DNA of 50,211 bases, from the IMG/VR virus record IMGVR_UViG_3300043786_001077, positions 1 through 50,211 of that record. The stretch is one strand, 5' to 3'. This document shows, piece after piece, positions 10,365-30,601 of this stretch. Numbering within the stretch: position 1 is the first letter of the stretch; each line of letters starts with the position of its first letter. The notes under the pieces were generated by a model. The model ran no database searches. It saw only the letters and a list, made by a program, of their open reading frames with translations, and was not told where the DNA came from. Source of the DNA: a virus. Position numbers and translations under genes: made by a program.

Positions 10365-11813
10365 TTAGGAGGCGAGCAGGTCGTCGCAGAGCGTGAAGCT
10401 GTTCGGCGTTCGCGGACCGGCGTCGATGAACTGCAGCGACCGCAGGCGGACAACGCCATTCGCGAAGTCCGTTTGGCCGAACGGATTCATGGTCAGTTCC
10501 ATGACGCCGTAGCGGGCAATCATCCAGTCGGGCATATGGCCGAGCAGGACATAGTTCAGGTTCGAGGCGCTGCCCTTTACCCGGTTCGCGCTGCACTGAC
10601 GGCTCACGATGACTTCGTAGCCGTTGAGGGACTTCTTGAATTCGTCGTTGCCCCGGCTCATCGTGTTGAACACAAGCAACCCGGCGCTATCGTTGGCCGT
10701 CACGGCGTCCGCCCGTCGGTTCGCAATCGCGGCGAACAGGTTCGGGCGCATGATGAACTTCAACTCCTTGTCGTTCACGGCGTCGGGCATCGTGCCCCAC
10801 ATCCCGAGAACGTCTTCCGGCTGGAACGTGTCGCCATTCCCGCCGACCGTCTTCGCAATATGGATGTTGATGTTCAAGTAAGTGTTGCTGTCGCCAACGT
10901 AGTTCAGCAGGCCCTTGATCGAAGTTGTCGAGCCCGGATCTTCGAGCATGGCTTGATCGGCCCGGAGGGCGCCGACGGCAGCCATGTCGCGACGGGCCAA
11001 CGCTTCGAGCGACGGGTTGCTGAAATTCATCCCTTCGACCGTCAGGCTGGTAATCACGGCCAATTTCTTGGCCCGCAGTTCCAGTTGGCCGGTCGTCAGT
11101 TCGCTCGGCGTGATGGGCTGACCTTCACCGACAAAGTAAGCGGTGGCGGGACCGGTCTGACGCGGAACGCTGACCGCGCCGTTCTGGCCGAACGTCATTT
11201 CAGTTGCACCGGCGCGGGCGAAAACTTCCCGGTTCCGCTGCAGCTCGATGACGTCGGAGAGCAGCGTCGGAGGCGGGATAAACGTACCGCCCGAAGTCGC
11301 GGGGAACGTGCCAAGCGACTTCTTGCGGAGCCATTCGGCCTCGTCCGGGTCGGATTTCTCAACGCTGGCGTGCAACTTTTGGCCCAGTTCCTTGAGGAAC
11401 GAGCGGCCGTTGCCGTCATCGCGGACATGTTCGCCGTGGTACATCGGGTTGGCCGACGCCACGACGAGCATGGAATTCCGCTTTTCCATCACGTTGCCGT
11501 AGAACGATTTCAGCTTGTTGCTGACTTCGACTTCTTCCTTGCACTCTTCCGAGCCGATGGCGCGGTCGCAGAACGCGGCGGCACGCAGGAACGAATAGCC
11601 CTGCGAATCCCTGCACACCGGGCCGGTCGTGACGTGCGGCTGGCCGGCGAGCAGCGACGGGTTGATTCCCTTGTAGTTCGGGTTGCCCTTCGCCTCATCC
11701 TTGGCCTTGTCGCCGAACGACTTGGCCCGGTAGGTCTCGGCGGACTCGGCTCGTTCATCACGAACCGCAGCCACCTTGTCCTTCAACTTGTCGATGCGGT
11801 CCTTGATGGACAT
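10365..11813 (-). CDS. Major capsid protein, HK97 fold
   Basis: A 482-residue protein. The N-terminus (MSIKDRIDKLKDKVAAVRDE) is coiled coil, like the scaffolding delta domain of HK97-type capsids. From about residue 165 the mature part follows: GTFIPPPTLLSDVIELQRNR, TEMTFGQNGAVSVPRQTGPA, VGEGQPITPSELTTGQLELR, KKLAVITSLTVEG, and the end carries FLDAGPRTP-like QFIDAGPRTPNSFTLCDDLL. These are the usual elements of this family (N-arm, E-loop, P-domain). The upstream gene is the prohead protease. AAGGAG gives a good ribosome-binding site 10 bases before ATG 11813. Confidence 0.85.
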   Translation of the reverse strand: MSIKDRIDKLKDKVAAVRDERAESAETYRAKSFGDKAKDEAKGNPNYKGINPSLLAGQPHVTTGPVCRDSQGYSFLRAAAFCDRAIGSEECKEEVEVSNKLKSFYGNVMEKRNSMLVVASANPMYHGEHVRDDGNGRSFLKELGQKLHASVEKSDPDEAEWLRKKSLGTFPATSGGTFIPPPTLLSDVIELQRNREVFARAGATEMTFGQNGAVSVPRQTGPATAYFVGEGQPITPSELTTGQLELRAKKLAVITSLTVEGMNFSNPSLEALARRDMAAVGALRADQAMLEDPGSTTSIKGLLNYVGDSNTYLNINIHIAKTVGGNGDTFQPEDVLGMWGTMPDAVNDKELKFIMRPNLFAAIANRRADAVTANDSAGLLVFNTMSRGNDEFKKSLNGYEVIVSRQCSANRVKGSASNLNYVLLGHMPDWMIARYGVMELTMNPFGQTDFANGVVRLRSLQFIDAGPRTPNSFTLCDDLLAS

Positions 11814-11852
11814 TCCGCACTCCTTGAGAAAATGGGTCGGGTGTTGTTGCCC

Positions 11853-12812
11853 TTAGTTGGCGGGGTTTTCCGCCATGGCTTCGAGGGTCTCGGTCAACGC
11901 GCCGATGGCCTCTTCATGACCGGAGATGCGGTCGATGACTTCGCTGAGATGTTCGCCGAGGACTTCCTGCGCGATTTCCGCCACGATGGCGCGGAGATTT
12001 TCCGGCGTGATGGCCGACGGGTTTTCTTCTTCAATTTCCGTTTCGACTTCGCTCGCCTCTTCCATTTCGCCCGGCTCTTCGATCTCTTCCACTTTTTCAA
12101 TTTCCTTGCCATTCACTTCGGACGGCTTGCAGGCGTCCATCAGTTGTTTTTCGAGCAGGTCCACGTCGCCTTCCGGGTACATTTCCTTCCAGCGGCCGTA
12201 CATGGCCTTGAGCTTTTCCGCCACTTCATCGGCGGGCTTTTCCATCTCCTCGGACGGCTTGTGCGATTCTTTTTTCTTCACGACGCTGGCTCCATAACGG
12301 ACGATTCGGCCGCCTTCGGCGGATGGTGTTAGGTCGTTCTTGCCCGCTTCGGTTTGCGATTTGGCGCGCACCGCCAACGCTTCGGGATTGTCGGGGATGT
12401 TGACGAGACTGACTTCGAAGAGTTTTGCGCCGGTCAGGACATCGACCGGCTTGCCGTTGATGTACTTTTTGACGGGTTTATTCGCGGTGAACCCCGGCGA
12501 AAAACCGCGCTTGAACCCGAGCTTGTACTGCCGGTATTCGTTGCGCCCGGCTTCGGAACCCATGTCGAAGTAACAGCGCCCGAATAGACCGTTCGCGCGC
12601 TTCTCAATCGAATACTGCCCGTCGGGATGTTCCCACTTGCCGACGATCTCGCCTCTCAGGTCGTGCTTGACGAGCGCGATCGGGTTGCGTTCGTGTTCGG
12701 ACGTGTCCCATTCTTCAACGGGAACGTACTCGTTAGATCGGTCGATGACGGGGGCGGAGATCCATCCCTCGACCCAATTTTCGCCGACGGTGATTTCGTC
12801 AACGGCTGCCAT
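11853..12812 (-). CDS. Prohead protease with C-terminal acidic scaffold-like tail
   Basis: A 319-residue protein from ATG 12812 (MAAVDEITVGENWVEGWISA); a TTG at 12848 would add 12 residues. Residues of about 10-155 match HK97-type prohead proteases (S78): VIDRSNEYVPVEEWD, NPIALVKHDLRGEIVGKWEH with the probable catalytic His, YKLGFKRGFSPGF, and LFEVSLVNIPDNPEA with the catalytic Ser in EVSLV. The C-terminal half is a very acidic, helical tail, EEIEEPGEMEEASEVETEIE, ending in a coiled coil. This suggests a protease-scaffold fusion. Confidence 0.8.
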   Translation of the reverse strand: MAAVDEITVGENWVEGWISAPVIDRSNEYVPVEEWDTSEHERNPIALVKHDLRGEIVGKWEHPDGQYSIEKRANGLFGRCYFDMGSEAGRNEYRQYKLGFKRGFSPGFTANKPVKKYINGKPVDVLTGAKLFEVSLVNIPDNPEALAVRAKSQTEAGKNDLTPSAEGGRIVRYGASVVKKKESHKPSEEMEKPADEVAEKLKAMYGRWKEMYPEGDVDLLEKQLMDACKPSEVNGKEIEKVEEIEEPGEMEEASEVETEIEEENPSAITPENLRAIVAEIAQEVLGEHLSEVIDRISGHEEAIGALTETLEAMAENPAN

Positions 12813-12857
12813 GGCCGTTGTTGCCCGATGCCGTTCGGGCGCGGGCAAAAATGGACT

Positions 12858-15023
12858 ATGGGGATTTCAGGCCGCCTTTACGATGGCGTCATCGCATTTG
12901 CCAAAGCGGTAGCGGGACGCGAGAAGGTTGACAAGAAAGTGGCTTCGCTTCTGGGCGGAACCCCGGCAAGTTGGCGGGCGTGGTCGGGCGATCCGTATCA
13001 GCAGATCATCGAATACCGCAACTGGACGTATACCGCGATCCGCTTTCGTGCGTTGCGCCGTCAGGTGCCGCCGATCGTTGCGCGGTATGTTGACGCGGGC
13101 GAGATCGAGGGCGATCGGGCGGAGCGGCGGAAGGCGTTCACGTTCGGCGGCGCGATGCCAAAAAAGCGAAATATCGTTTCGCGGCAAAAGGCAATCGGAT
13201 CGGGTATCAGTCGGGTCGGTCACGAATTGGAATACCTGCCCACGTCCTCGGCCCCGATGCGATTGTTGCACGATCCGAACGATCCGCAGATTGGCATCGA
13301 CCTGTGGTATATGTGTTCGGTATTCGAGGACTTGACGGGCCGCGTGCATATCTGGAAAGTGCGGGACGGCGCGGGCCGGGTTGTCGAACTGTGGTATCTG
13401 CCCACGCAATGGTGCGATCCGCGACCGGGCGACGGCAAACTGATTAACCAACTGCTCGTTACGATGCCTTCGGGCGGGTCGGTGATCCTTGACGCGGACG
13501 ATGTGATTACAATCGGCGAGCCGTCGCCGTTTGGGTATCTGGCCTGGCAATCGCCGTTGCAGGCACACGGGTTGACGGTCGACCTGAATAACGCTCTGTT
13601 CGTCAGTCGATTCAACGGGCTGATAAACGGATCGCATGTTGGCAGCATGATTAAAGTGCCGTCGTCGATGGCGAATAATCCTGATTCGATGGCGCGCCTC
13701 GAGCAATCGCTGTTGAGCCGGACGGTCGGGACGATCAACTACAATCGGCCATTGATTGCGGAAGAGGGCGCGGAGCTTATCAATCTGACTCCGCAGATGG
13801 AGCTGGCGTTCAGCCAATCCGCGAACCAGATGAGGGACAATATCTTCGCCGCGTTCGATCTTGATGCGTCGGTCATGGGCTACGCGAATGAGGCCACTTA
13901 CGCGGCGTCGGTTGTCACGCAGAAAAACGTGTTCAACAAAGTGGTCAAGCCTTATTGGGAACGGCGTAATGCGACGCTGACCGAAAAACTGCTGAAAATG
14001 GAATTCGGCCTCGACTTGTGTGCGATCAATGAACACAAGACGGAAGAGACGCCGGACGAAAAGGAACGTCGGCTGCGGTTCATGAAGGAATCGGGCGCGA
14101 TTTCGGTCAATGAGATCCGGGTCGAATACGAAAAGGAACCGTATGACGATCCGCGATATGACGAACCGATTGGTTTTGCCGAATACGCTCGTCTAGACGC
14201 TGGCAATCCGAATGACGCGCCCACGGATGACTACGGGCAGACACCGCCGAGCGATTTTAATGGCGGACAAGATATTCTTACCGTTTACAAAAGTTTTACC
14301 GGCGTAATTACCGACGCAATTGGTCGAAAAATTCGTTACGTCAATGGCAAACGTGTCCCCATGGGTGGCGTATCACAAAACGCATCAAGTGCATCGCAAA
14401 GCGATTCAGAACTTTCACAGCAAACAAAAGTAGATACGTTCAAAACAAGAAAGCTGGACAATGATGACATCGAGGCACTAAACGAAGCTGGGGTTATAAA
14501 AAATCAAATAACGTACGACGAGCTCGAAAGGTCAATTCAGCCGTCTACGCCATCTGATTTGGATGGCGAATACATTTATCTTTGGCACGGAACAAGTTCA
14601 ACGGCGGCAAGGAAAATAGCCAAAGACGGAACTATTAAAGAAGGCGAACGAGGCCGAAATGCGACTGCCGATGTAAACCACGCTGCCGAATACCCAGAAT
14701 CTACTGGCGCGGATTGCTTGGTTTTGATAAAAGCCAAAGTCAGCGAAATAGGAATAGACCCAAACGACACAAACAGTAAAATTATTGATGCAGCAAAAAA
14801 TGATATTAACATAGCCAAAAAAATGAGTTTATTCCCTGAAAGTTACGACATAAAAGACAGAAGCTCTTGTTCGATTGGCAGCAACACAATTGTAGCTATT
14901 ATTAATATGCGAGATGGTGTTAGGCGAGAAGAAGCATTTTCATTTATAGAAAAAGGAAATTTAATGGATGCAATTTATAGCGGTGCCACGGTGGAATACC
15001 TTAACAGAAAAGAAACAAAATAA
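12858..15023 (+). CDS. Portal protein with C-terminal ADP-ribosyltransferase-like extension
   Basis: A 721-residue protein from ATG 12858 (MGISGRLYDGVIAFAKAVAG); ATG 12828 is possible. Residues 1 to about 460 are portal-like: YQQIIEYRNWTYTAIRFRAL, IDLWYMCSVFEDLTGRVHIW, ELWYLPTQWC, VIHI-like DVITIGEPSPFGYLAWQSPL and FGLDLDASVMGYANEATYAA. Typical portals stop there. Here a linker (ITDAIGRKIRYVNGKRVP, Ser/Gln-rich) leads to about 150 more residues with YLWHGTSSTAARKIAKDG, RNATADVNHAAEYPES and CLVLIKAKVSE. This is the H...Y layout of ADP-ribosyltransferases (PARP/KptA-like). The extension is clearly AT-richer than the portal part. Confidence 0.8.
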   Translation: MGISGRLYDGVIAFAKAVAGREKVDKKVASLLGGTPASWRAWSGDPYQQIIEYRNWTYTAIRFRALRRQVPPIVARYVDAGEIEGDRAERRKAFTFGGAMPKKRNIVSRQKAIGSGISRVGHELEYLPTSSAPMRLLHDPNDPQIGIDLWYMCSVFEDLTGRVHIWKVRDGAGRVVELWYLPTQWCDPRPGDGKLINQLLVTMPSGGSVILDADDVITIGEPSPFGYLAWQSPLQAHGLTVDLNNALFVSRFNGLINGSHVGSMIKVPSSMANNPDSMARLEQSLLSRTVGTINYNRPLIAEEGAELINLTPQMELAFSQSANQMRDNIFAAFDLDASVMGYANEATYAASVVTQKNVFNKVVKPYWERRNATLTEKLLKMEFGLDLCAINEHKTEETPDEKERRLRFMKESGAISVNEIRVEYEKEPYDDPRYDEPIGFAEYARLDAGNPNDAPTDDYGQTPPSDFNGGQDILTVYKSFTGVITDAIGRKIRYVNGKRVPMGGVSQNASSASQSDSELSQQTKVDTFKTRKLDNDDIEALNEAGVIKNQITYDELERSIQPSTPSDLDGEYIYLWHGTSSTAARKIAKDGTIKEGERGRNATADVNHAAEYPESTGADCLVLIKAKVSEIGIDPNDTNSKIIDAAKNDINIAKKMSLFPESYDIKDRSSCSIGSNTIVAIINMRDGVRREEAFSFIEKGNLMDAIYSGATVEYLNRKETK

Positions 15024-15066
15024 AATGATGCTTCGGAACTGCTAATGGAACAAAACCGGATGAATA

Positions 15067-16818
15067 ATGCCTATTGACCCCGCCCACGGCCGCGACATTC
15101 CGAGCGGGGCATCATTTGCCCGCGTCGTCGGGCGTTTCCTTGCCCGCACCCGTCAGCGATTTTACGACGCCGTTCGCCAAGGCTATACGCCGAAAATCAG
15201 CCCGATGGACGCGCAGGAACTCGCGGCCGATCTCGTGCCGTTCTATATGCGAGAATTGGAGCTGGGCGCGCGCTGGTCGATGGTTCAATTGAGCAGGCCG
15301 CGCAGTTCGATGATCCGCCTGCCGCGCGGGGTCGCTTCGGCTGAGGGCTTGATCGTCCCGTCTCCCCGTGTTGTCGCAGCACTGACGCGACAACCGGGCG
15401 CGCCGCTTCCGATCATGGAACCGCCAACGCCAACGGCGCGGGTGACAACGCCGATTCCTGGCGGTACGGGCGGGAAGTTTGGCGTTGACTTGTCGCGGGC
15501 GTTCACGTTGTTACAGCCGACGGTCCGGCCCGCTGCCGAGGCAATGGCCACAAACTTCGTGGGCGAGTTGACCGGTACGACACAGCAGAAGGTCCGCGAG
15601 GCGATCCGCGACGGGTTGACGGCGGGCGAGCCGCTGTCGAAGATTCAGGCCCGGCTGATGGGCATCACGGAAGATGTGCCGACGGTGGCGGGGCGTGTCG
15701 AGAAGTTGAGCGTGTTTGATCGGGATCGGGCAATTACGGTCGGCTTGACGGAATCGAGCAGGGCACGCCATCGGGGTCAGGCGACATACGCGCAGTCGCT
15801 CGGATCGTGGGGCCTTGAATACTTGGCCTCGTCGGACGCGTGTGATCTCTGCCTATCGCTAAACGGCAAGCAAGTGCCGCACGGCGAACCGTTTTACGTT
15901 TGGCCGAAGGCACCGGCAGAGTATCGAAATGTTTGGTATCCGCCCAGCCATCCGAATTGCGTCGTCGGAGATACGTTAATTGCAAGTTGCGGCATCCAGT
16001 CGGCTATTCGCGGCATCTACAGAGGCGACGTTGTAACACTTTCGTTTGACGATGGACCGGATTTGACCGTTACCCCAAATCACATGCTCTTGACCGATGC
16101 CGGGTTTCTCAAAGCGGCGGACATTGTGAAGGGCCGCAATGTAATCCGCACACCGCTCGTCGAATCGCATCGTCTTCCAAACTTTAACGGCCCAAATCAC
16201 GACCACGCTCCAGCCTTGGCTCGTGATATATTTGACTCGCTTGCTGTATATAGCGGCGTGCTTTCCAGTAAAATGCCAATTGCCCCCGAAGACCTCCACG
16301 GCGATGCGGCTTTCTGCGATAGCCAAATCAATGTTATAAATGCCAAGGTTCATCTGCGGGATCGTTTCAATTCCGCGAACTTTGAGCCAATCGGCGACAG
16401 CAATTTCATACTTCGAAACATTGCTGGGATTGACGGCTCTTGTCGCGGCGATCTTCAGGCGATGTTCCACGCTTTGCTTTTTGCCACGAACGGCCGCATG
16501 GGCATTGAACGCGAGCGCCATGCGGCTTTCCTTGGGCATATTTTGAAATCGCAGAATGTTGGCTTCACTGCCGTTTCTGATTCGCAGGCCGATCTTTTTC
16601 ATGCAACGGATAATTCTCGGCCTACTGACGCCGATCGACTTCGAGATGCTCAAAACGCTTTGCCCAAGGTCGTAACGACGTCTCAGGTCATCGCAGTCAA
16701 TAGGCGTTTTCATAACGGTCCCGTTTACGATTTTCAAACTGCCGAAACGATGTACCTTGTCGGTCACGGGATTATATCCTCGAATTGCCGTTGTACCGCG
16801 ATCGACGTTTTCAGGTGA
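15067..16818 (+). CDS. MuF-type head morphogenesis protein interrupted by an intein
   Basis: The 583-residue precursor has extein residues 1-297 and 574-583. The extein has the MuF pattern: a helical N-terminus, TTQQKVREAIRDGLTAGEPL, ITVGLTESSRARHRGQATYA, and SSDACDLCLSLNGKQVPHGE with the CxxC pair. The family's closing motif HPNCRC is split by the intein between Asn and Cys and restored by splicing (HPN plus CRCTAIDVFR). MuF proteins act in head assembly and may be ejected with DNA. It follows the portal gene by 43 bases. ATG 15067 is the first good start. Confidence 0.85.
   Translation: MPIDPAHGRDIPSGASFARVVGRFLARTRQRFYDAVRQGYTPKISPMDAQELAADLVPFYMRELELGARWSMVQLSRPRSSMIRLPRGVASAEGLIVPSPRVVAALTRQPGAPLPIMEPPTPTARVTTPIPGGTGGKFGVDLSRAFTLLQPTVRPAAEAMATNFVGELTGTTQQKVREAIRDGLTAGEPLSKIQARLMGITEDVPTVAGRVEKLSVFDRDRAITVGLTESSRARHRGQATYAQSLGSWGLEYLASSDACDLCLSLNGKQVPHGEPFYVWPKAPAEYRNVWYPPSHPNCVVGDTLIASCGIQSAIRGIYRGDVVTLSFDDGPDLTVTPNHMLLTDAGFLKAADIVKGRNVIRTPLVESHRLPNFNGPNHDHAPALARDIFDSLAVYSGVLSSKMPIAPEDLHGDAAFCDSQINVINAKVHLRDRFNSANFEPIGDSNFILRNIAGIDGSCRGDLQAMFHALLFATNGRMGIERERHAAFLGHILKSQNVGFTAVSDSQADLFHATDNSRPTDADRLRDAQNALPKVVTTSQVIAVNRRFHNGPVYDFQTAETMYLVGHGIISSNCRCTAIDVFR
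15958..16785 (+). mobile_element. Intein in the MuF protein, double-coded with an antisense endonuclease gene
   Basis: The 276-residue intein begins with Cys (TGC 15958) as CVVGDTLIASC (block A). It has VTLSFDDGPDLTVTPNHMLL with the TxxH of block B, and ends GPVYDFQTAETMYLVGHG then ISSN before Cys+1 (blocks F and G). The last residue Asn and following Cys are canonical, but the usual penultimate His is Ser. The region between the splicing blocks (about 16140-16660) has no sense-strand endonuclease motif; it is the reverse complement of an endonuclease gene. All 276 codons are open. Confidence 0.88.
15976..16713 (-). CDS. Vsr-like (EDxHD-type) homing endonuclease encoded antisense inside the MuF intein
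   Basis: A 245-residue protein from ATG 16713 (MKTPIDCDDLRRRYDLGQSV); the frame is open up to 16767. Residues 7-45 are a helix-turn-helix (SVLSISKSIGVSRPRIIRCM) as in phage homing endonucleases. Residues 100-175 show the Vsr-like nuclease core: KYEIAVADWLKVRG (E103), GIYNIDLAIAE (D129), VEVFGGNWHF (H147), then SKRVKYITSQGWSVVVIW. This is the layout of EDxHD/I-Bth0305I-type enzymes. The gene lies wholly inside the intein and runs opposite to it. No strong Shine-Dalgarno is seen, so how it is expressed is unclear. Confidence 0.78.
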   Translation of the reverse strand: MKTPIDCDDLRRRYDLGQSVLSISKSIGVSRPRIIRCMKKIGLRIRNGSEANILRFQNMPKESRMALAFNAHAAVRGKKQSVEHRLKIAATRAVNPSNVSKYEIAVADWLKVRGIETIPQMNLGIYNIDLAIAESRIAVEVFGGNWHFTGKHAAIYSKRVKYITSQGWSVVVIWAVKVWKTMRFDERCADYIAALHNVRRFEKPGIGQEHVIWGNGQIRSIVKRKCYNVASVDAANSRLDAATCN

Positions 16819-16842
16819 TTTTTCCCGTTTTTCGCACGCAAA

Positions 16843-16860
16843 AAAATTTCCGGAAATTTT
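16843..16860. promoter_or_regulatory. Operator-like palindrome upstream of the 16.88 kb promoter
   Basis: AAAATTTCCGGAAATTTT is a perfect 18-bp palindrome, 21 bases before the -35 of the promoter at 16882. Its core ATTTCC-GGAAAT resembles the TTTCAGGAAAT palindrome next to the promoter at 23998, so the same repressor could bind both. A terminator role for the MuF gene (a T-tract follows) is the alternative. Confidence 0.5.
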
Positions 16861-16881
16861 CCCTTTTTTTCTCCCGGACTA

Positions 16882-16910
16882 TTGCCAGCCCCGAATATCT
16901 ATACTAAGAT
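16882..16910 (+). promoter_or_regulatory. Sigma70-like promoter for the small zinc-cluster gene
   Basis: TTGCCA (16882-16887), a 17-base spacer and TAAGAT (16905-16910). The expected transcript start is near 16917. It matches promoters at 22148 and 23998 that also have TTGCC at -35 and a 17-base spacer. Confidence 0.7.
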
Positions 16911-16922
16911 ATTCTACATAAC

Positions 16923-16969
16923 ACGAGCAACACGCTCAACCGACGCCCGGCGGAACCGGGCAGGGGAAA
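16923..16969 (+). promoter_or_regulatory. Double-hairpin mRNA leader, copy 1
   Basis: The leader contains GAGC-aacac-GCTC (16925-16937) and a stronger hairpin GCCCGG-CGGAA-CCGGGC (16945-16961), followed by AGGGGAA and the start codon. The same two hairpins, with the shared CGCTCAACCGAC between them, occur at 24041-24077 in front of another small gene. Paired changes keep the stems. It may control translation or stabilise the mRNA. Confidence 0.65.
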
Positions 16970-17224
16970 ATGACAATGAGTCTGCAAATCCTCGGAGTGA
17001 ATGACGATGTCACGACTTGTGAATGCTGCGGCAAGTCCAATCTTAAATTGACCGTTGTACTTTCCGCTGGCGAGGGCATTCAACATTTCGGCCGCGATTG
17101 TGCGGCTAAAGCGATCGCGTTTTCGCGTGGCACACGGCGGAAATCCGCTCATGTTATCGAAGTTGAAGCCAGAAACGCTCAGGCAGGTTATCGACGGACA
17201 GCGGGCGGATTTACGCGAATCTAA
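16970..17224 (+). CDS. Small zinc-cluster phage protein
   Basis: An 84-residue protein; ATG 16970 or 16976 (MSLQILGVNDDVTTCECCGK). It has CxCC near residue 20 followed by LKLTVVLSAGEGIQHFGRDC, so a CxCC...C metal site is likely. Small proteins with this CECCGK...FG.DCA pattern are widespread in phages without a known job. It stands alone between its own promoter and a strong terminator, so it is an independent, possibly highly expressed, transcript. Confidence 0.75.
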   Translation: MTMSLQILGVNDDVTTCECCGKSNLKLTVVLSAGEGIQHFGRDCAAKAIAFSRGTRRKSAHVIEVEARNAQAGYRRTAGGFTRI

Positions 17225-17238
17225 CACGCTGACGCCAC

Positions 17239-17267
17239 GCCCCGGCGACGTGCCGGGGTTTTTCTTT
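17239..17267 (+). terminator. Rho-independent terminator
   Basis: CCCCGG (17240-17245), loop CGACGTG and CCGGGG (17253-17258) are followed by TTTTTCTTT. It ends the transcript of the small zinc-cluster gene and lies before the plus-strand gene at 17288, which would then depend on read-through. Confidence 0.85.
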
Positions 17268-17287
17268 ACCCACACCGGAATCCCACA

Positions 17288-17500
17288 ATGACCACCGCAC
17301 AAAAACAAAAACTTGCCATCGAAATCGTCATGGCCGTTGCGGAGACGATCCGCGAGGCGGGCGAGATCCCGTCCGGCCACCTCTACGCCGGCCTGATGGA
17401 AAAAGGCTGCACGATGGCGCAATACGACAACCTGATTCGCACCTTGATCGAGTCCGGCATCGTCCGCAAGTCGGGCCATATGCTCAAATGGGCTATCTGA
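17288..17500 (+). CDS. Small winged-helix-like protein
   Basis: A 70-residue protein starting MTTAQKQKLAIEIVMAVAET. The helices AETIREAGEIPSGHLYAGLM and TMAQYDNLIRTLIESGIVRK followed by a short strand (HMLKWAI) look like a winged-helix/HTH fold, the last part being the wing. It ends 8 bases inside the 3' end of the convergent terminase gene. It could be a regulator; no family name is certain. Confidence 0.65.
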   Translation: MTTAQKQKLAIEIVMAVAETIREAGEIPSGHLYAGLMEKGCTMAQYDNLIRTLIESGIVRKSGHMLKWAI

Positions 17501-19859
17501 TTCCCCATCCGCCGATAGTCGATTCGACATGCACGGTTACATAGCGCAAGCTGTCGCAATTATGCACTAGGATTCCATTCGCGACGTATTCGCCAGATTC
17601 AGTCGTGAGATTGTAAACCGGAGCAATCCGGTTTGTTTTTTTTACGGAAACGACACGAACAAGAGCAAAACTGTTTGACAGCATACCGATTGCATTTGAA
17701 TTCAGCACCGCAGGACTTGCAATTTCTGGATTCGTCGTCAGCCCCCGAATCTCTTCTTGCTGCTGATTTGCAGTTATTCCCGCAAAACTTGTTTTTACTT
17801 GTGTAAAAACACTCGTATTGCTTCCCGCACTTCTGGCATTGGAGCGAAATCTTTTTTCTGTTTTTAACAATTTCTTTTGCGTGCAATGAATGCCAAGCAC
17901 GCCCTTCAGGCGATCGATGCCACTCCTTAGCTTTTGGCACGCCGTATTTAACAATGATTTCAGCATATAACGCCCTGCGCTCTGGCGACAACGTTTCGGC
18001 GTGATGCTTGGCGTGATCTTCTTTTGTAATCGCACGCAAGTTTGCAGGGTGATTATTTTCAGTATCTTCGTCAATATGGTGGACGTGATAGCCTTCGGGT
18101 ATCGGCCCGTGAAAGTCTCTGTATATTTGCCGATGCAGGTAATCTTTTCCGTGCATTCGCTCGACAATCCCGGCGATGTAGTACTTTCTATCGCTTGTCT
18201 GTTTTGCGTTTGGGTATCGCCGGTACTTTGTTCCGTTGTACTCGATGACAACGGCTTTGCCTGATTCGTATTTCTTGAGTTGTAGTTGTTCCATAAAGAT
18301 ATATATCCTACTTCATCAGCGCCACAGATTATATTGCCTAATTTTTTATAGCCTTGTGTCGTCCATATTGGGTGATCGGAAGTCCCTTCAATTGTTTGGC
18401 CATTGGCAAGCTCTAAACGATATATCTCCGCTGCCGCGTTGGTCATTGCTGAATCTTTTACCGTTGCCATCCCATGCCGGGAAAGCACGCTATCGCCAAT
18501 TTGAACCGATTCGATAGGCGTCATTCCGCGTTGCGTATAAACCATTGTGCCAGCGACGAAACAGCCGTGGTTATTTGCATCCTCGGGGCAATCCTTCCGA
18601 GGATTCCAAACGTAAGACCGCATTTCCTCAATCGTCGATGTCGGTTTACCCTTGGCCCGTAATTTTGCGTCCGGCGCGTGCGTCAATGCCCCTTGTGTGA
18701 TATAGAGCCGGGCGCGTCCGTCCTTCTGGATGCGCAAACGTGACTGCACCTGTTGGATGCCCTTCCGCATATCGGCTTTGTCCGCCATCGTGCAATGTAG
18801 TCGCGAGTGACGGGTGAATGACGCTGCGTTCGTCGGGTCATGGTCGCACACAATCGCCTGCGGGCGCGGTTCGCGTTTTTCCTCAATCTCTTTCGCCGCC
18901 CATGCCGCCACGTCCTCGACGAGGCGTTCCGTCTGATACAATTCGCGATAGAGGTACATCCGCCCGTCGCCGTCCTTCGCCCAAAATTGCAACACCATCG
19001 GATCGTTCCATCCCCAGTCGATCGCCCAATATCGCGGCCACGACACGGGCGGGAGCGGCCCCCCGAATACTTCCTGGCAAGCGGCCGGCGTGAGGATATT
19101 GGTCTTCGGATCGAACGTGTCGTACACCAATCCTTCGGCGGCGGCCCATAATCCCTCAAGCAACCGCTTCCTCATGAACCCGGTGAGCGTGCCGAGTTGC
19201 TTGTCGAGGTATTCGCGCCCGTCCTCCGTCCAATCCTGGCCGTTGTGGAATCGCGGGTTATGTTCGTGCCTCGATTCATGCCCTGATATCAGGCCCGCGT
19301 CCATCAGCCGCTTGAGCCAGTGGTGGTCGTAGGTCGGATTGCAGTCGAGGATAATCTGCCGGAACGGCTTGCCCGCGAGACCGCCGTCGATCTTTTTCGC
19401 TTTCGTGAACTTGGCCCGTAACGCGCGTTTCAGGGAAAGGTATTCATCCTCTTCCAGTTCGGCCGCTTCCTGCACATACCCGCCATTGAATTCCGTGGAG
19501 AATAGCTTTTCGGGCTTGTCCATGCCCGCGCACACGATAACGGACCGGTTCGGCATTTCGTAGTAGTCGCGGGTCTTCCGCATCAGCGGGCGGTTCATCA
19601 GGACCGGCGACGTTTCGCCGAACACGTCATTTTCGAGCGTGACCAACGCTGATTCGGCCAGCGATGCCTTGGTTTTCCGAACGATAAACCAACGGGTTCC
19701 GGGATAGAGGTAGGCGAGGTGGACTAGTTTGAAAAGGCTGGCAAGTGTCTTGCCCGTACCGGCAGGCCCCCACGCGAGTGAGGCGGGCGAACGGTCGCGG
19801 TAATGGTCAAGATTCCCGCCACGGAAAACAGGCGCGGGCAGGATAAGGGGCGCACTCAT
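17493..19859 (-). CDS. terL: Terminase large subunit interrupted by an intein
   Basis: The precursor is 788 residues; without the intein the terminase is 453, the usual length. Walker A is GPAGTGKT (31-38), the probable Walker B/catalytic acid is at GGYVQEAAELEEDE (about 126-139), and the coupling motif is ILDCNP (170-175). The nuclease domain starts with YWAIDWGWNDP (D281), then IVCDHDPTNA. The third acidic motif, NNHG-CDSLRY, is split by the intein after Gly432. It packages DNA with TerS, whose gene overlaps its start by 4 bases. Confidence 0.9.
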   Translation of the reverse strand: MSAPLILPAPVFRGGNLDHYRDRSPASLAWGPAGTGKTLASLFKLVHLAYLYPGTRWFIVRKTKASLAESALVTLENDVFGETSPVLMNRPLMRKTRDYYEMPNRSVIVCAGMDKPEKLFSTEFNGGYVQEAAELEEDEYLSLKRALRAKFTKAKKIDGGLAGKPFRQIILDCNPTYDHHWLKRLMDAGLISGHESRHEHNPRFHNGQDWTEDGREYLDKQLGTLTGFMRKRLLEGLWAAAEGLVYDTFDPKTNILTPAACQEVFGGPLPPVSWPRYWAIDWGWNDPMVLQFWAKDGDGRMYLYRELYQTERLVEDVAAWAAKEIEEKREPRPQAIVCDHDPTNAASFTRHSRLHCTMADKADMRKGIQQVQSRLRIQKDGRARLYITQGALTHAPDAKLRAKGKPTSTIEEMRSYVWNPRKDCPEDANNHGCFVAGTMVYTQRGMTPIESVQIGDSVLSRHGMATVKDSAMTNAAAEIYRLELANGQTIEGTSDHPIWTTQGYKKLGNIICGADEVGYISLWNNYNSRNTNQAKPLSSSTTEQSTGDTQTQNRQAIESTTSPGLSSECTEKITCIGKYTETFTGRYPKAITSTILTKILKIITLQTCVRLQKKITPSITPKRCRQSAGRYMLKSLLNTACQKLRSGIDRLKGVLGIHCTQKKLLKTEKRFRSNARSAGSNTSVFTQVKTSFAGITANQQQEEIRGLTTNPEIASPAVLNSNAIGMLSNSFALVRVVSVKKTNRIAPVYNLTTESGEYVANGILVHNCDSLRYVTVHVESTIGGWGIR
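17559..18563 (-). mobile_element. Intein in TerL with a second gene in another frame
   Basis: The 335-residue intein starts at Cys (codon 18563-18561) as CFVAGTMVYTQRGMTPIESV. It contains IYRLELANGQTIEGTSDHPI with the TxxH of block B, and ends VYNLTTESGEYVANGILVHN before Cys+1. So Cys1, His-Asn and Cys+1 are all canonical, and splicing should restore NNHGCDSLRY. The part between the Hint blocks (about 17660-18330) is Lys/Thr/Ser-rich without endonuclease motifs in this frame, but stays open. In another frame it is an HNH gene. The segment is AT-richer than the flanking extein. Confidence 0.92.
17599..18294 (-). CDS. HNH homing endonuclease nested out of frame inside the TerL intein
   Basis: A 231-residue protein on the same strand as terL but in a different frame, from ATG 18294 (MEQLQLKKYESGKAVVIEYN). 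Residues 52-90 form the HNH site: YLHRQIYRDFHGPIPEGYHV then HHIDEDTENNHPANLRAIT (H72, H73, N81). Two C-terminal zinc fingers follow: CQKCGKQYE...CGNNC (about 152-175) and CKSCGAEFK...CSCSC (about 192-215). This is a complete free-standing phage HNH enzyme. TATAAT (18333-18328) lies 34 bases upstream, with AGGA closer, so it could have its own promoter. Its 3' end reaches into the block F coding region. Confidence 0.88.
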   Translation of the reverse strand: MEQLQLKKYESGKAVVIEYNGTKYRRYPNAKQTSDRKYYIAGIVERMHGKDYLHRQIYRDFHGPIPEGYHVHHIDEDTENNHPANLRAITKEDHAKHHAETLSPERRALYAEIIVKYGVPKAKEWHRSPEGRAWHSLHAKEIVKNRKKISLQCQKCGKQYECFYTSKNKFCGNNCKSAARRDSGADDESRNCKSCGAEFKCNRYAVKQFCSCSCRFRKKNKPDCSGLQSHD

Positions 19860-20320
19860 CCGATGGCGATATGTTTGACTTCGTGGCCGAGATCAACTAG
19901 GTCACTCTCCGCCGATTGTTGTCGGGTCGTCGCGTCCTGAACAGCCTTCCGCAATTCGGCAATCTCTTTCTTAAGCAGATAGATTTCGCGCCGGTCCGAG
20001 CCGAACGATTCGGGGTAGCACCGTTCGAGCGTCCACGCGTTCGCCTGCCACGTTTTCCTACCGGCAACCTGAATGGCCATTACCATGCGCGCGACGGCGT
20101 CCGCCTTGGCTTTTTCTACCGCTGTGTAAAATGAAACGAAATCAGTGCCATTTTTATTTGTTTTGCCCTGTCGTCCCAACGCGAGCCAGTAGAAGACTTG
20201 CCGTTCACTGATGCCCGCACGGAGCGCCGCGAATTTCAGCGGCACGCCTACGCCGAGGTCGCGGGTAATGGATTCCCGGACCTTGTCAGTCAGTTTCGGA
20301 CGTGAACCCTTGCGGGCCAT
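19856..20320 (-). CDS. terS: Terminase small subunit-like DNA-binding protein
   Basis: A 154-residue protein starting MARKGSRPKLTDKVRESITR. Residues 15-55 are a helix-turn-helix (GVPLKFAALRAGISERQVFY), followed by FYTAVEKAKADAVARMVMAI and a C-terminal coiled coil (REIYLLKKEIAELRKAVQDA). This is typical of small terminases, which bind the packaging site and form a ring. It overlaps the terL start by 4 bases. GGCAATAA lies directly in front of its start, with no classic Shine-Dalgarno. Confidence 0.8.
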   Translation of the reverse strand: MARKGSRPKLTDKVRESITRDLGVGVPLKFAALRAGISERQVFYWLALGRQGKTNKNGTDFVSFYTAVEKAKADAVARMVMAIQVAGRKTWQANAWTLERCYPESFGSDRREIYLLKKEIAELRKAVQDATTRQQSAESDLVDLGHEVKHIAIG

Positions 20321-27331: not shown

Positions 27332-28798
27332 TTAAATTCCCCCTCCGATTTCTCGGAATAGCCTTTCTTGTTCTTCGGTATCTTGTTGAACCCGAGCCGC
27401 TTTTCGCAGGACGGTTTCAATCATCGGACGCTCAAGGTCCGTGACTGGGATATGAACGTTAAGAGGTCGAGTTGACCCGTAACGGTTTGACCGTTTGACG
27501 GCCTGATAGTATTCCTCATAGCTGTCTTGCAACGTGCTAAATAGTTGCCGTGTGCAACATTGCAGATTCAATCCGAGGCCGAGAATCTTCGGTTTGCTTA
27601 TCAGCGTCTTAATTTTGCCTGATTGAAAATCTTCGACGATTCGAACTCGTTCATCATGAGGTGTTGAGCCGTCGATATTGCCAGAATTAGAAATCATGCT
27701 GGCTAACTGGTCTTGCTCGGCGTTGTATCGACACCAAACGATCCTAGACTCATCGCCAAACGAATTCAAGCGGTTGACGATGTAATCAGGTTTTAACGAT
27801 TCGGCACCAATGCCCTTGGCGATCCGTGCAATCTTAGCACGAGATCCAATGCCTCCAAGCGTTCCGAATAAATCCCCGCTGGCAATCTGAGCTTGACCGC
27901 GTTGGTCTTCGGTTAAATCAACGTCCTCGATGTGGACATTGATCGGCGGTAACGTGCCGCAGTTGTCTTTCCAACCATAGACGGCGGGATTCGTCAAGAA
28001 AATAGACCAATGCGAAAGCGACTTGTAAAACGGTCGCAACGCATGGGGCTTTAATTCCCACCGATTTTGAGTCTCGCCACGGTTTACAAAATATTTGGCA
28101 AGGAACGAATTCACGGTCGGGAATTGGTCAAGCAAAACAGCGTGATTCGCATACTCAATCCGATCGTTTGGGGCAGGGGTGCCAGTGCCGGCCAGCTTCC
28201 ATTCAAGACCTTTGCCAAGTTCAATCAGCCGTGTACCCCATGCACCATAATGGGACTTCAGCATGCTAGATTCGTCAATGATCAAGGCACCGATTCGGCC
28301 TTGATTGACTTTTTCCGTAATCGCTTCAAAATTGGTAATCCCAATTCGTCCGCCCGATTCAGTCCATGATGGCAAGTCTTTTGCGTGAACTTGTTTGATA
28401 GGCAGGTCATTCCCGTACCATCGCTTCGATTCGGCGATCGTCTGCCGTACAACCATCAGCGGGCAAATCATTAATACGGACTTACCCTGAGGCAACACGT
28501 CGCCAACGTGACGCATGTATTCGAGAAAGATCAAAGTCTTGCCAAGTCCGCAGTCGGCAAAAATCGCATACTTGCGTTTTCGTATAGCAATCTCGGCGAT
28601 TGCTTTTTGGTAATCGAAAAGCATTCTGCGTGGCTTATATTCGACATCTTTTACAGCAATCGAAGTCAGTCCTATGCGGTCCGCGTACTCATCAGGAATA
28701 ATAGCGTCCGTGCCTTGAAATCTGTAAACAGGCAGACTCTTAATTTTTAGAAAAGTTCTGTATCCTTCTATCGTATTCAAATTTAATGCAATGCGCAT
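27332..28798 (-). CDS. SNF2/DEAD-type helicase
   Basis: A 488-residue superfamily 2 helicase. Motif I FADCGLGKTLIFLEYM (about residue 80), Ia PLMVVRQTIAESKRWYG, II GALIIDESSMLKSHYGAWG, III GTGTPAPNDRIEYANH, then in the second half ILGLGLNLQCC (V) and YQAVKRSNRYGSTR (VI, Q..GR.xR-like). It is the SNF2-like form common in phages, usually next to a methyltransferase as here. It could act in DNA replication, recombination or translocation. It starts at 28798, sharing TAATG with the upstream gene. Confidence 0.85.
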   Translation of the reverse strand: MRIALNLNTIEGYRTFLKIKSLPVYRFQGTDAIIPDEYADRIGLTSIAVKDVEYKPRRMLFDYQKAIAEIAIRKRKYAIFADCGLGKTLIFLEYMRHVGDVLPQGKSVLMICPLMVVRQTIAESKRWYGNDLPIKQVHAKDLPSWTESGGRIGITNFEAITEKVNQGRIGALIIDESSMLKSHYGAWGTRLIELGKGLEWKLAGTGTPAPNDRIEYANHAVLLDQFPTVNSFLAKYFVNRGETQNRWELKPHALRPFYKSLSHWSIFLTNPAVYGWKDNCGTLPPINVHIEDVDLTEDQRGQAQIASGDLFGTLGGIGSRAKIARIAKGIGAESLKPDYIVNRLNSFGDESRIVWCRYNAEQDQLASMISNSGNIDGSTPHDERVRIVEDFQSGKIKTLISKPKILGLGLNLQCCTRQLFSTLQDSYEEYYQAVKRSNRYGSTRPLNVHIPVTDLERPMIETVLRKAARVQQDTEEQERLFREIGGGI

Positions 28799-30529: not shown

Positions 30530-30601
30530 AGCGCCGTAGCTTAGTGGAAGATCGCCCCGCTGATAACGGGGAGGTCGGCCGTCCGATTTGGCCCGGTGCT
30601 A
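30530..30601 (+). tRNA. tRNA-Ile (anticodon GAU)
   Basis: The acceptor stem is AGCGCCG (30530-30536) with CGGTGCT (30594-30600), 7 pairs. The anticodon stem is CCCCG/CGGGG (30555-30559, 30567-30571), with loop CTGATAA and anticodon GAT at 30562-30564. The T-stem GGCCG/TGGCC has loop TCCGATT. The D-arm is weak (one mismatch). No CCA is encoded. The unusual T-loop and D-arm lower the certainty that it is functional. Confidence 0.7.

Follow-up and report, generated by a model that had tools for sequence, protein, structure and literature searches.

In textbook inteins, the endonuclease is an in-frame domain that is excised together with the intein. In "fractured genes", represented by split inteins of the gp41-1 type, a separate homing endonuclease gene (HEG) is located between the two intein halves. 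Another arrangement, collaborative homing, has been described for introns: a free-standing HEG lies beside a group I intron that has no HEG of its own (PMC10448857, PMC2814812). Genes for HNH endonucleases have further been found hidden out of frame in insertions within phage DNA methylases, namely the ShiLan domain and the Pacc40 insertion, which contain no splicing domain (PMC11855218, 2025). These insertions are the closest published precedent of the layout described here, and they lie outside any intein. A search of openly licensed PMC papers turned up no description of a true intein with an endonuclease encoded out of frame or antisense; an earlier description may exist elsewhere.

The DNA analysed here, called the window, is a stretch of 50,211 nucleotides of a viral record (IMGVR_UViG_3300043786_001077), in which the gene for the terminase large subunit (terL) is interrupted by an intein. 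Our results make it very probable that this intein is mobile and that its homing endonuclease, instead of forming an in-frame domain, is overprinted on it in a different reading frame.

The TerL intein and the gene nested in it

The whole TerL (17493-19859, minus strand) is 788 amino acids long including the intein. Its N-extein (18564..19859, minus strand; 432 amino acids) comprises the ATPase and the start of the nuclease domain and matches phrog_2, terminase large subunit (4.7e-32), and Terminase_3 (8e-6). The C-extein (17493..17558, minus strand) starts with CDSLRY and carries a nuclease motif. Between them lies an intein of 335 amino acids (17559..18563, minus strand; TerL residues 433-767), which begins with Cys1 and ends with His-Asn in front of Cys+1, the junctions being NNHG/CFVAGT...GILVHN/CDSLRY. 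These canonical ends had been recognised in a first-pass annotation made from the sequence alone, and they are now joined by profile matches and a Hint fold. Intein_splicing from Pfam matches with 2.1e-8 and 34.5 bits, slightly below its curated cut-off of 35.8; the match of TIGR01443 exceeds its cut-off, and those of TIGR01445 and Hint_2 are weaker. Inteins of class 1 have Cys1, TxxH in block B, a C-terminal Asn and Cys, Ser or Thr at +1; in 32 aligned inteins Cys1, His64 and Asn335 are invariant and Thr61 nearly so, and the +1 residue is cysteine.

AlphaFold2 (AF2), whose input alignments for the intein and for the nested protein each had one phage-record row left out, predicts two confident Hint halves with pLDDT around 95. 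The N-terminal half spans intein residues 1-93 (18285..18563, minus strand; pLDDT about 95 over residues 1-80) and the C-terminal half, delimited by the structure model and the intein ends, residues 296-335 (17559..17678, minus strand). The linker of 202 residues between them (residues 94-295; 17679..18284, minus strand) is predicted to be disordered, with pLDDT mostly 30-43. The model matches the gp41-1 and DnaB mini-inteins with E-values down to 1.8e-6, the gp41-1 intein being the best match in PDB. Profiles, ends and predicted fold support the view that the insertion is a true intein, and splicing activity is predicted for it.

The disordered linker is the HNH gene read out of frame. Relative to TerL, this gene of 231 amino acids (17599..18294, minus strand) occupies the +2 (= -1) frame; it starts with ATG at 18294 and ends with a stop codon at 17599-17601. 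Its start region (18292..18320, minus strand) contains two consecutive TGA codons in the HNH frame, the moderate Shine-Dalgarno-like sequence AGTAGG and the ATG. The product is a homing-type endonuclease according to PF13392 (3e-16) and phrog_15471 (5e-31), and AF2 predicts a confident protein (mean pLDDT 92.3). Foldseek with this model returned no significant match, the best being 1u3e, I-HmuI (E 0.07); when the HNH profile was compared to PDB sequences, the same 1u3e was the sole significant match (0.0039). The catalytic motif is present, with His72, His73 and Asn81 invariant, and two C-terminal CxxC...CxxxC fingers follow, whose cysteines are invariant across 37 aligned HNHs. Profile searches thus find intein families in the TerL frame and PF13392 and phrog_15471 in the HNH frame, in agreement with the first-pass description of a 231-residue HNH gene with two fingers and its own ATG in another frame. 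The same description gave the intein frame as open for more than 230 codons across the gene; it is stop-free over all 231. In the third frame of the same strand, this stretch contains 14 stops. When codons of the window HNH are synonymously shuffled, the intein frame stays open in only 0.5% of cases. Roughly the last 26 HNH codons double as the first codons of the C-terminal splicing half and overlap its conserved block, so this stretch encodes two conserved proteins. The GC content of the HNH gene is 45%, compared with 59% in the TerL N-extein.

Recurrence, selection and proposed origin of nested HNH genes

Close relatives of the window virus were found neither in IMG/VR, with the window HNH and the TerL N-extein as queries, nor by blastn against phages; alignment-based searches were needed. 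Homologs were gathered from phage records, IMG/VR and GTDB genomes and sorted by six-frame open reading frames and by splicing-block profiles built from ten inteins. Because the search was seeded with nested HNHs, the resulting locus counts are not an unbiased census. Among 164 loci with HNH homologs, 111 are nested, with both splicing blocks, a stop-free frame and the +2 phase, and another four are partial. Since the window itself is present among them as a fetched copy (L001), 110 distinct nested loci were analysed; at 60% HNH identity they sort into 82 clusters. The layout, which the first-pass annotation had implied to be singular, is thus widespread. In all 110 loci the host is TerL and the phase +2, and the nested +2 junctions listed lie at a TerL-like site ahead of an xDAxRY motif. 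The sole in-frame HNH of the survey is a different HNH in the intein of a ribonucleotide-reductase-like ORF from an Armatimonadetes metagenome-assembled genome (L247); it has the classical in-frame layout and presents a contrast case.

Both frames of the nested loci are coding. A check for stops in relatives, proposed in the first-pass annotation, found none in the intein frame of any of the 110 loci, against 12.7 stop-free loci expected from synonymous shuffling of HNH codons within each gene. The third same-strand frame has 2041 stops in the nested loci, about 19 per gene, and in HNH homologs outside inteins the frame corresponding to that of the intein is open in only 4 of 49. The absence of stops in the intein frame is selected. 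The HNH frame is under selection as well, and it is the more constrained one, since in 37 related pairs substitutions are distributed as 1596:1285:2477 over codon positions 1:2:3 of the HNH and are thus most frequent at its wobble position, which is codon position 2 of the intein. In these tests, and in those on the antisense nuclease described below, significance is overstated because related loci were treated as independent and the nested class required an open frame; their direction is uniform. In synonymously shuffled HNH genes the intein frame averages 2.05 stops, the other frame of the same strand 19.4 and the antisense frames 4.9, 7.8 and 9.5. The phase that is seen is hence the one with fewest needed changes; common descent contributes too, and the two are inseparable here.

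HNH homologs that are not classed as nested mostly remain close to terL: 46 of 53 share a locus with it, in most cases with terL directly upstream. In two such loci (L115, L094) terL is uninterrupted and the HNH starts within about 30 nt of its end or overlaps it, and annotated free-standing copies adjoin terminase genes in CL2, PAE1, SN1 and BP10. Nested and free forms are interleaved in a quick HNH tree, with 14 label changes, 6 of them forced by starred branches; the changes are an upper estimate, as some "free" rows are truncations at contig edges (e.g. L133). A state without HNH occurs at the same site as well. The virus vir335 carries an HNH-less mini-intein of 132 amino acids where another locus (L116) has an HNH intein of 345 amino acids, their N-exteins being 99.3% identical. 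When L116 is compared to L267, a near-identical virus terL with a 132-aa mini-intein, the inteins are mosaic and diverge from about nt 148. The coexistence of free-standing, nested and HNH-less states at a single terL site makes it testable how composite inteins originate. The relationships among these sequences support, but do not prove, an origin in which a terL-adjacent free-standing HNH would have entered a mini-intein.

An antisense nuclease in the MuF intein

A second case in the same window had been left out of the first-pass annotation, which dealt with TerL. A Mu-F-like head morphogenesis protein (MuF; 15067..16818, plus strand; PF04233 6.5e-7, phrog_15127 1.9e-29) holds an intein of 276 amino acids (15958..16785, plus strand). 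Its Intein_splicing match (0.002) is below the cut-off, and its splicing blocks are conserved in 83 loci. Codon-aligned antisense to it lies a gene for a PD-(D/E)XK/Vsr-like endonuclease (PF18741 8.4e-9, DUF559), at 15976..16713 on the minus strand if counted from a conserved Met, within an ORF that extends to 16767 (263 amino acids). By tblastn, relatives of this nuclease were found in antisense orientation within genes of MuF type in Gordonia, Salmonella, Escherichia and Vibrio phages. Both splicing blocks are present in 83 of 86 antisense loci and partial in the other 3, and a single antisense phase is used throughout. The nuclease is unannotated in Jersey-like Salmonella phages, and the MuF gene of the E. 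coli phage Snoke, which is among the tblastn hits, is annotated as intein-containing without any annotation of the antisense gene.

The antisense phase pairs codon position 1 of the nuclease with position 3 of the host gene, so that host position 1 is the wobble position of the nuclease. In nine MuF genes of Jersey/Kagunavirus phages, substitutions at host positions 1:2:3 amount to 1639:1054:3947 in the N-extein and to 1609:342:948 in the nuclease overlap. Synonymous shuffling is uninformative here, as stops in the intein frame depend only on TTA, CTA and TCA codons of the nuclease, and codon avoidance relative to other genes was used for this reason. These three codons, each of which would be a stop in the intein frame, occur 0 times in the nuclease across 84 loci, whereas about 370 would be expected from the other genes of each locus. 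Expression of the nuclease needs an antisense transcript; as terL points toward it, read-through from terL could supply one in the window.

The surroundings (10365-19859) show an unusual arrangement. The portal gene (12627-15023) and MuF are on the plus strand and terL and the major head protein gene (10365-11813) on the minus strand, so that, compared with the customary gene order, portal and MuF seem to be inverted as a pair; only short imperfect pairs were found when inverted repeats flanking this segment were looked for. Elsewhere the phage genome contains a tRNA-Ile (GAT) at 30530-30601 (plus strand) and an N6/N4 DNA methylase gene (PF01555; 26406-27329, minus strand) adjoining a helicase gene (27332-28798).

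Mobility, expression and relation to known systems

Near-identical phages without the intein indicate that the element is mobile in relatives of the window virus, for which no near relative and no such pair were found in the collections. The TerL intein of Highwayman (327 amino acids) is missing from Acba_21, whose terL is otherwise 98.8% identical, and mismatches between the two are concentrated at 0 to +13 relative to the site, a pattern that co-conversion would produce. The Highwayman terL is matched by 41 other Acinetobacter records, none of which covers 80% of it, and among the matches listed, 21 Acinetobacter phages have both flanks without an intein. In another pair of loci (L024, L026) exteins diverge by 29.5% and the HNH by 0.8%. 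The MuF intein behaves likewise: that of Snoke is missing from fEg-Eco19, and between Snoke and PST-H1 the N-extein is 31% different and the nuclease overlap 2.4%. These comparisons fit horizontal spread of the element.

The same data bear on the idea that the nested HNH has given up homing and works with TerL as a packaging factor of HK97 type. HNH nucleases beside terL do assist cos cleavage in HK97 (PMC10448857), and the free-standing relatives adjoin terL. The element is, however, missing from near-identical phages with working terL, and its divergence is discordant with that of the exteins, as for a selfish element, which makes a packaging role improbable and leaves homing as the preferred reading.

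For a homing enzyme encoded out of frame, the question arises how it is translated. Shine-Dalgarno pairing of -7 kcal/mol or stronger is found at 28% of nested starts against 8% of control out-of-frame extein starts; it is only moderate in the window (-4.8 kcal/mol), and strong pairing is missing at about half of nested starts. A TATAAT upstream of the HNH, noted in the first-pass annotation, does exist (18333-18328). A dedicated promoter built on it is unsupported, as the hexamer has no -35 partner and no sigma-70 site for the HNH was found in 18000-18700. Internal ribosome entry and initiation would therefore be the best-supported route, ahead of an own promoter. Programmed -1 frameshifting from the intein frame, yielding a fusion of the N-terminal intein half with the HNH, would agree with the -1 position that the HNH frame has with respect to the intein in every nested TerL locus. 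Only 4 of 108 loci, however, have slippery heptamers close to the HNH start, a rate near that in extein controls, and a stop in the HNH frame precedes the first start by a median of 12 nt, which leaves hardly any room for a shift. The upstream stop and the lack of slippery-site enrichment, along with Shine-Dalgarno pairing above control, argue against frameshifting and render it highly unlikely.

That the HNH is really an in-frame intein domain displaced by a sequencing or assembly error was a caveat of the first-pass annotation itself, and the window is a single record; the same phase in 110 loci from independent assemblies and isolates rules out a single-base error as the cause, and with both Hint halves intact in one frame and stops avoided in it, this account has practically no probability. 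A group I intron or other RNA-spliced element, suggested by the frequent presence of HNH genes in group I introns, is just as implausible, given the continuous frame, the intein blocks, the Hint fold and the absence of any Rfam match at E<=1 in 14900-20000.

In the mechanism we propose for the overprinted homing endonuclease, translation of TerL would run through the intein, and the Hint domain, split by the disordered linker of about 200 residues, would excise itself and restore TerL. The HNH would be made separately, most likely by internal initiation on terL mRNA at the ATG at 18294. When a co-infecting phage has a terL without the intein, the nuclease would cut this gene at the insertion site or close to it and thereby convert it to the intein allele. 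The core of the first-pass reading, a true intein with an out-of-frame HNH and uncoupled expression, gains support from homology, 110 loci in one phase, codon-position substitutions, stop avoidance and structure prediction, its expression part being what we infer.

Two unrelated nucleases are thus overprinted on inteins in other frames across deep phage diversity, which points to a previously unnoticed way in which a mobile intein can bring along the enzyme that mobilises it. It is about as likely as not that overprinted homing endonucleases form a distinct and old class of phage inteins with at least two origins, one for the same-strand HNH of TerL and one for the antisense Vsr-like nuclease of MuF, and with a single fixed phase in either case. 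Having starts of their own, such nucleases would make intein mobility independent of splicing, and their layout may be a stage that connects free-standing HEGs, mini-inteins and the split inteins of fractured genes. The nested loci illustrate how a long overlapping gene can be accommodated in an essential one, and they can explain large inteins without a recognisable endonuclease in their own frame. Standard annotation misses such overlapping genes, and even phages that have been isolated (Jersey-like Salmonella phages, Highwayman, TJE1) lack an annotation of them.

Canonical HNH and LAGLIDADG inteins share with the TerL element the Hint domain, the position of the endonuclease in the linker and mobility; contrary to them, its HNH is out of frame in all 110 loci and must be translated separately. 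The best PDB match of the TerL element is the gp41-1 intein, which is of split type, but the open overlapping frame keeps both halves of the TerL intein on a single polypeptide. The nuclease has the HNH motif of the I-HmuI family and differs from it by two C-terminal fingers and by being nested in an intein, not an intron. As in collaborative homing, a free-standing HNH adjoins the terL with the insertion site and HNH-less mini-intein alleles exist; here, however, the HEG is partnered with an intein, which in most cases already contains it. Entry of a free HNH into a mini-intein would be the intein counterpart of intron collaborative homing. Finally, in the ShiLan and Pacc40 insertions, too, the host frame stays open across a complete HNH gene that is read in a different frame; their distribution is disjunct, and Pacc40 also has a free-standing relative adjoining the gene. 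Neither an intein nor an intron is detectable in ShiLan, however, and it presumably stays in the protein of a non-essential methylase (PMC11855218), whereas the element described here resides in the essential TerL, within an intein bearing a Hint domain, and has an antisense version as well.
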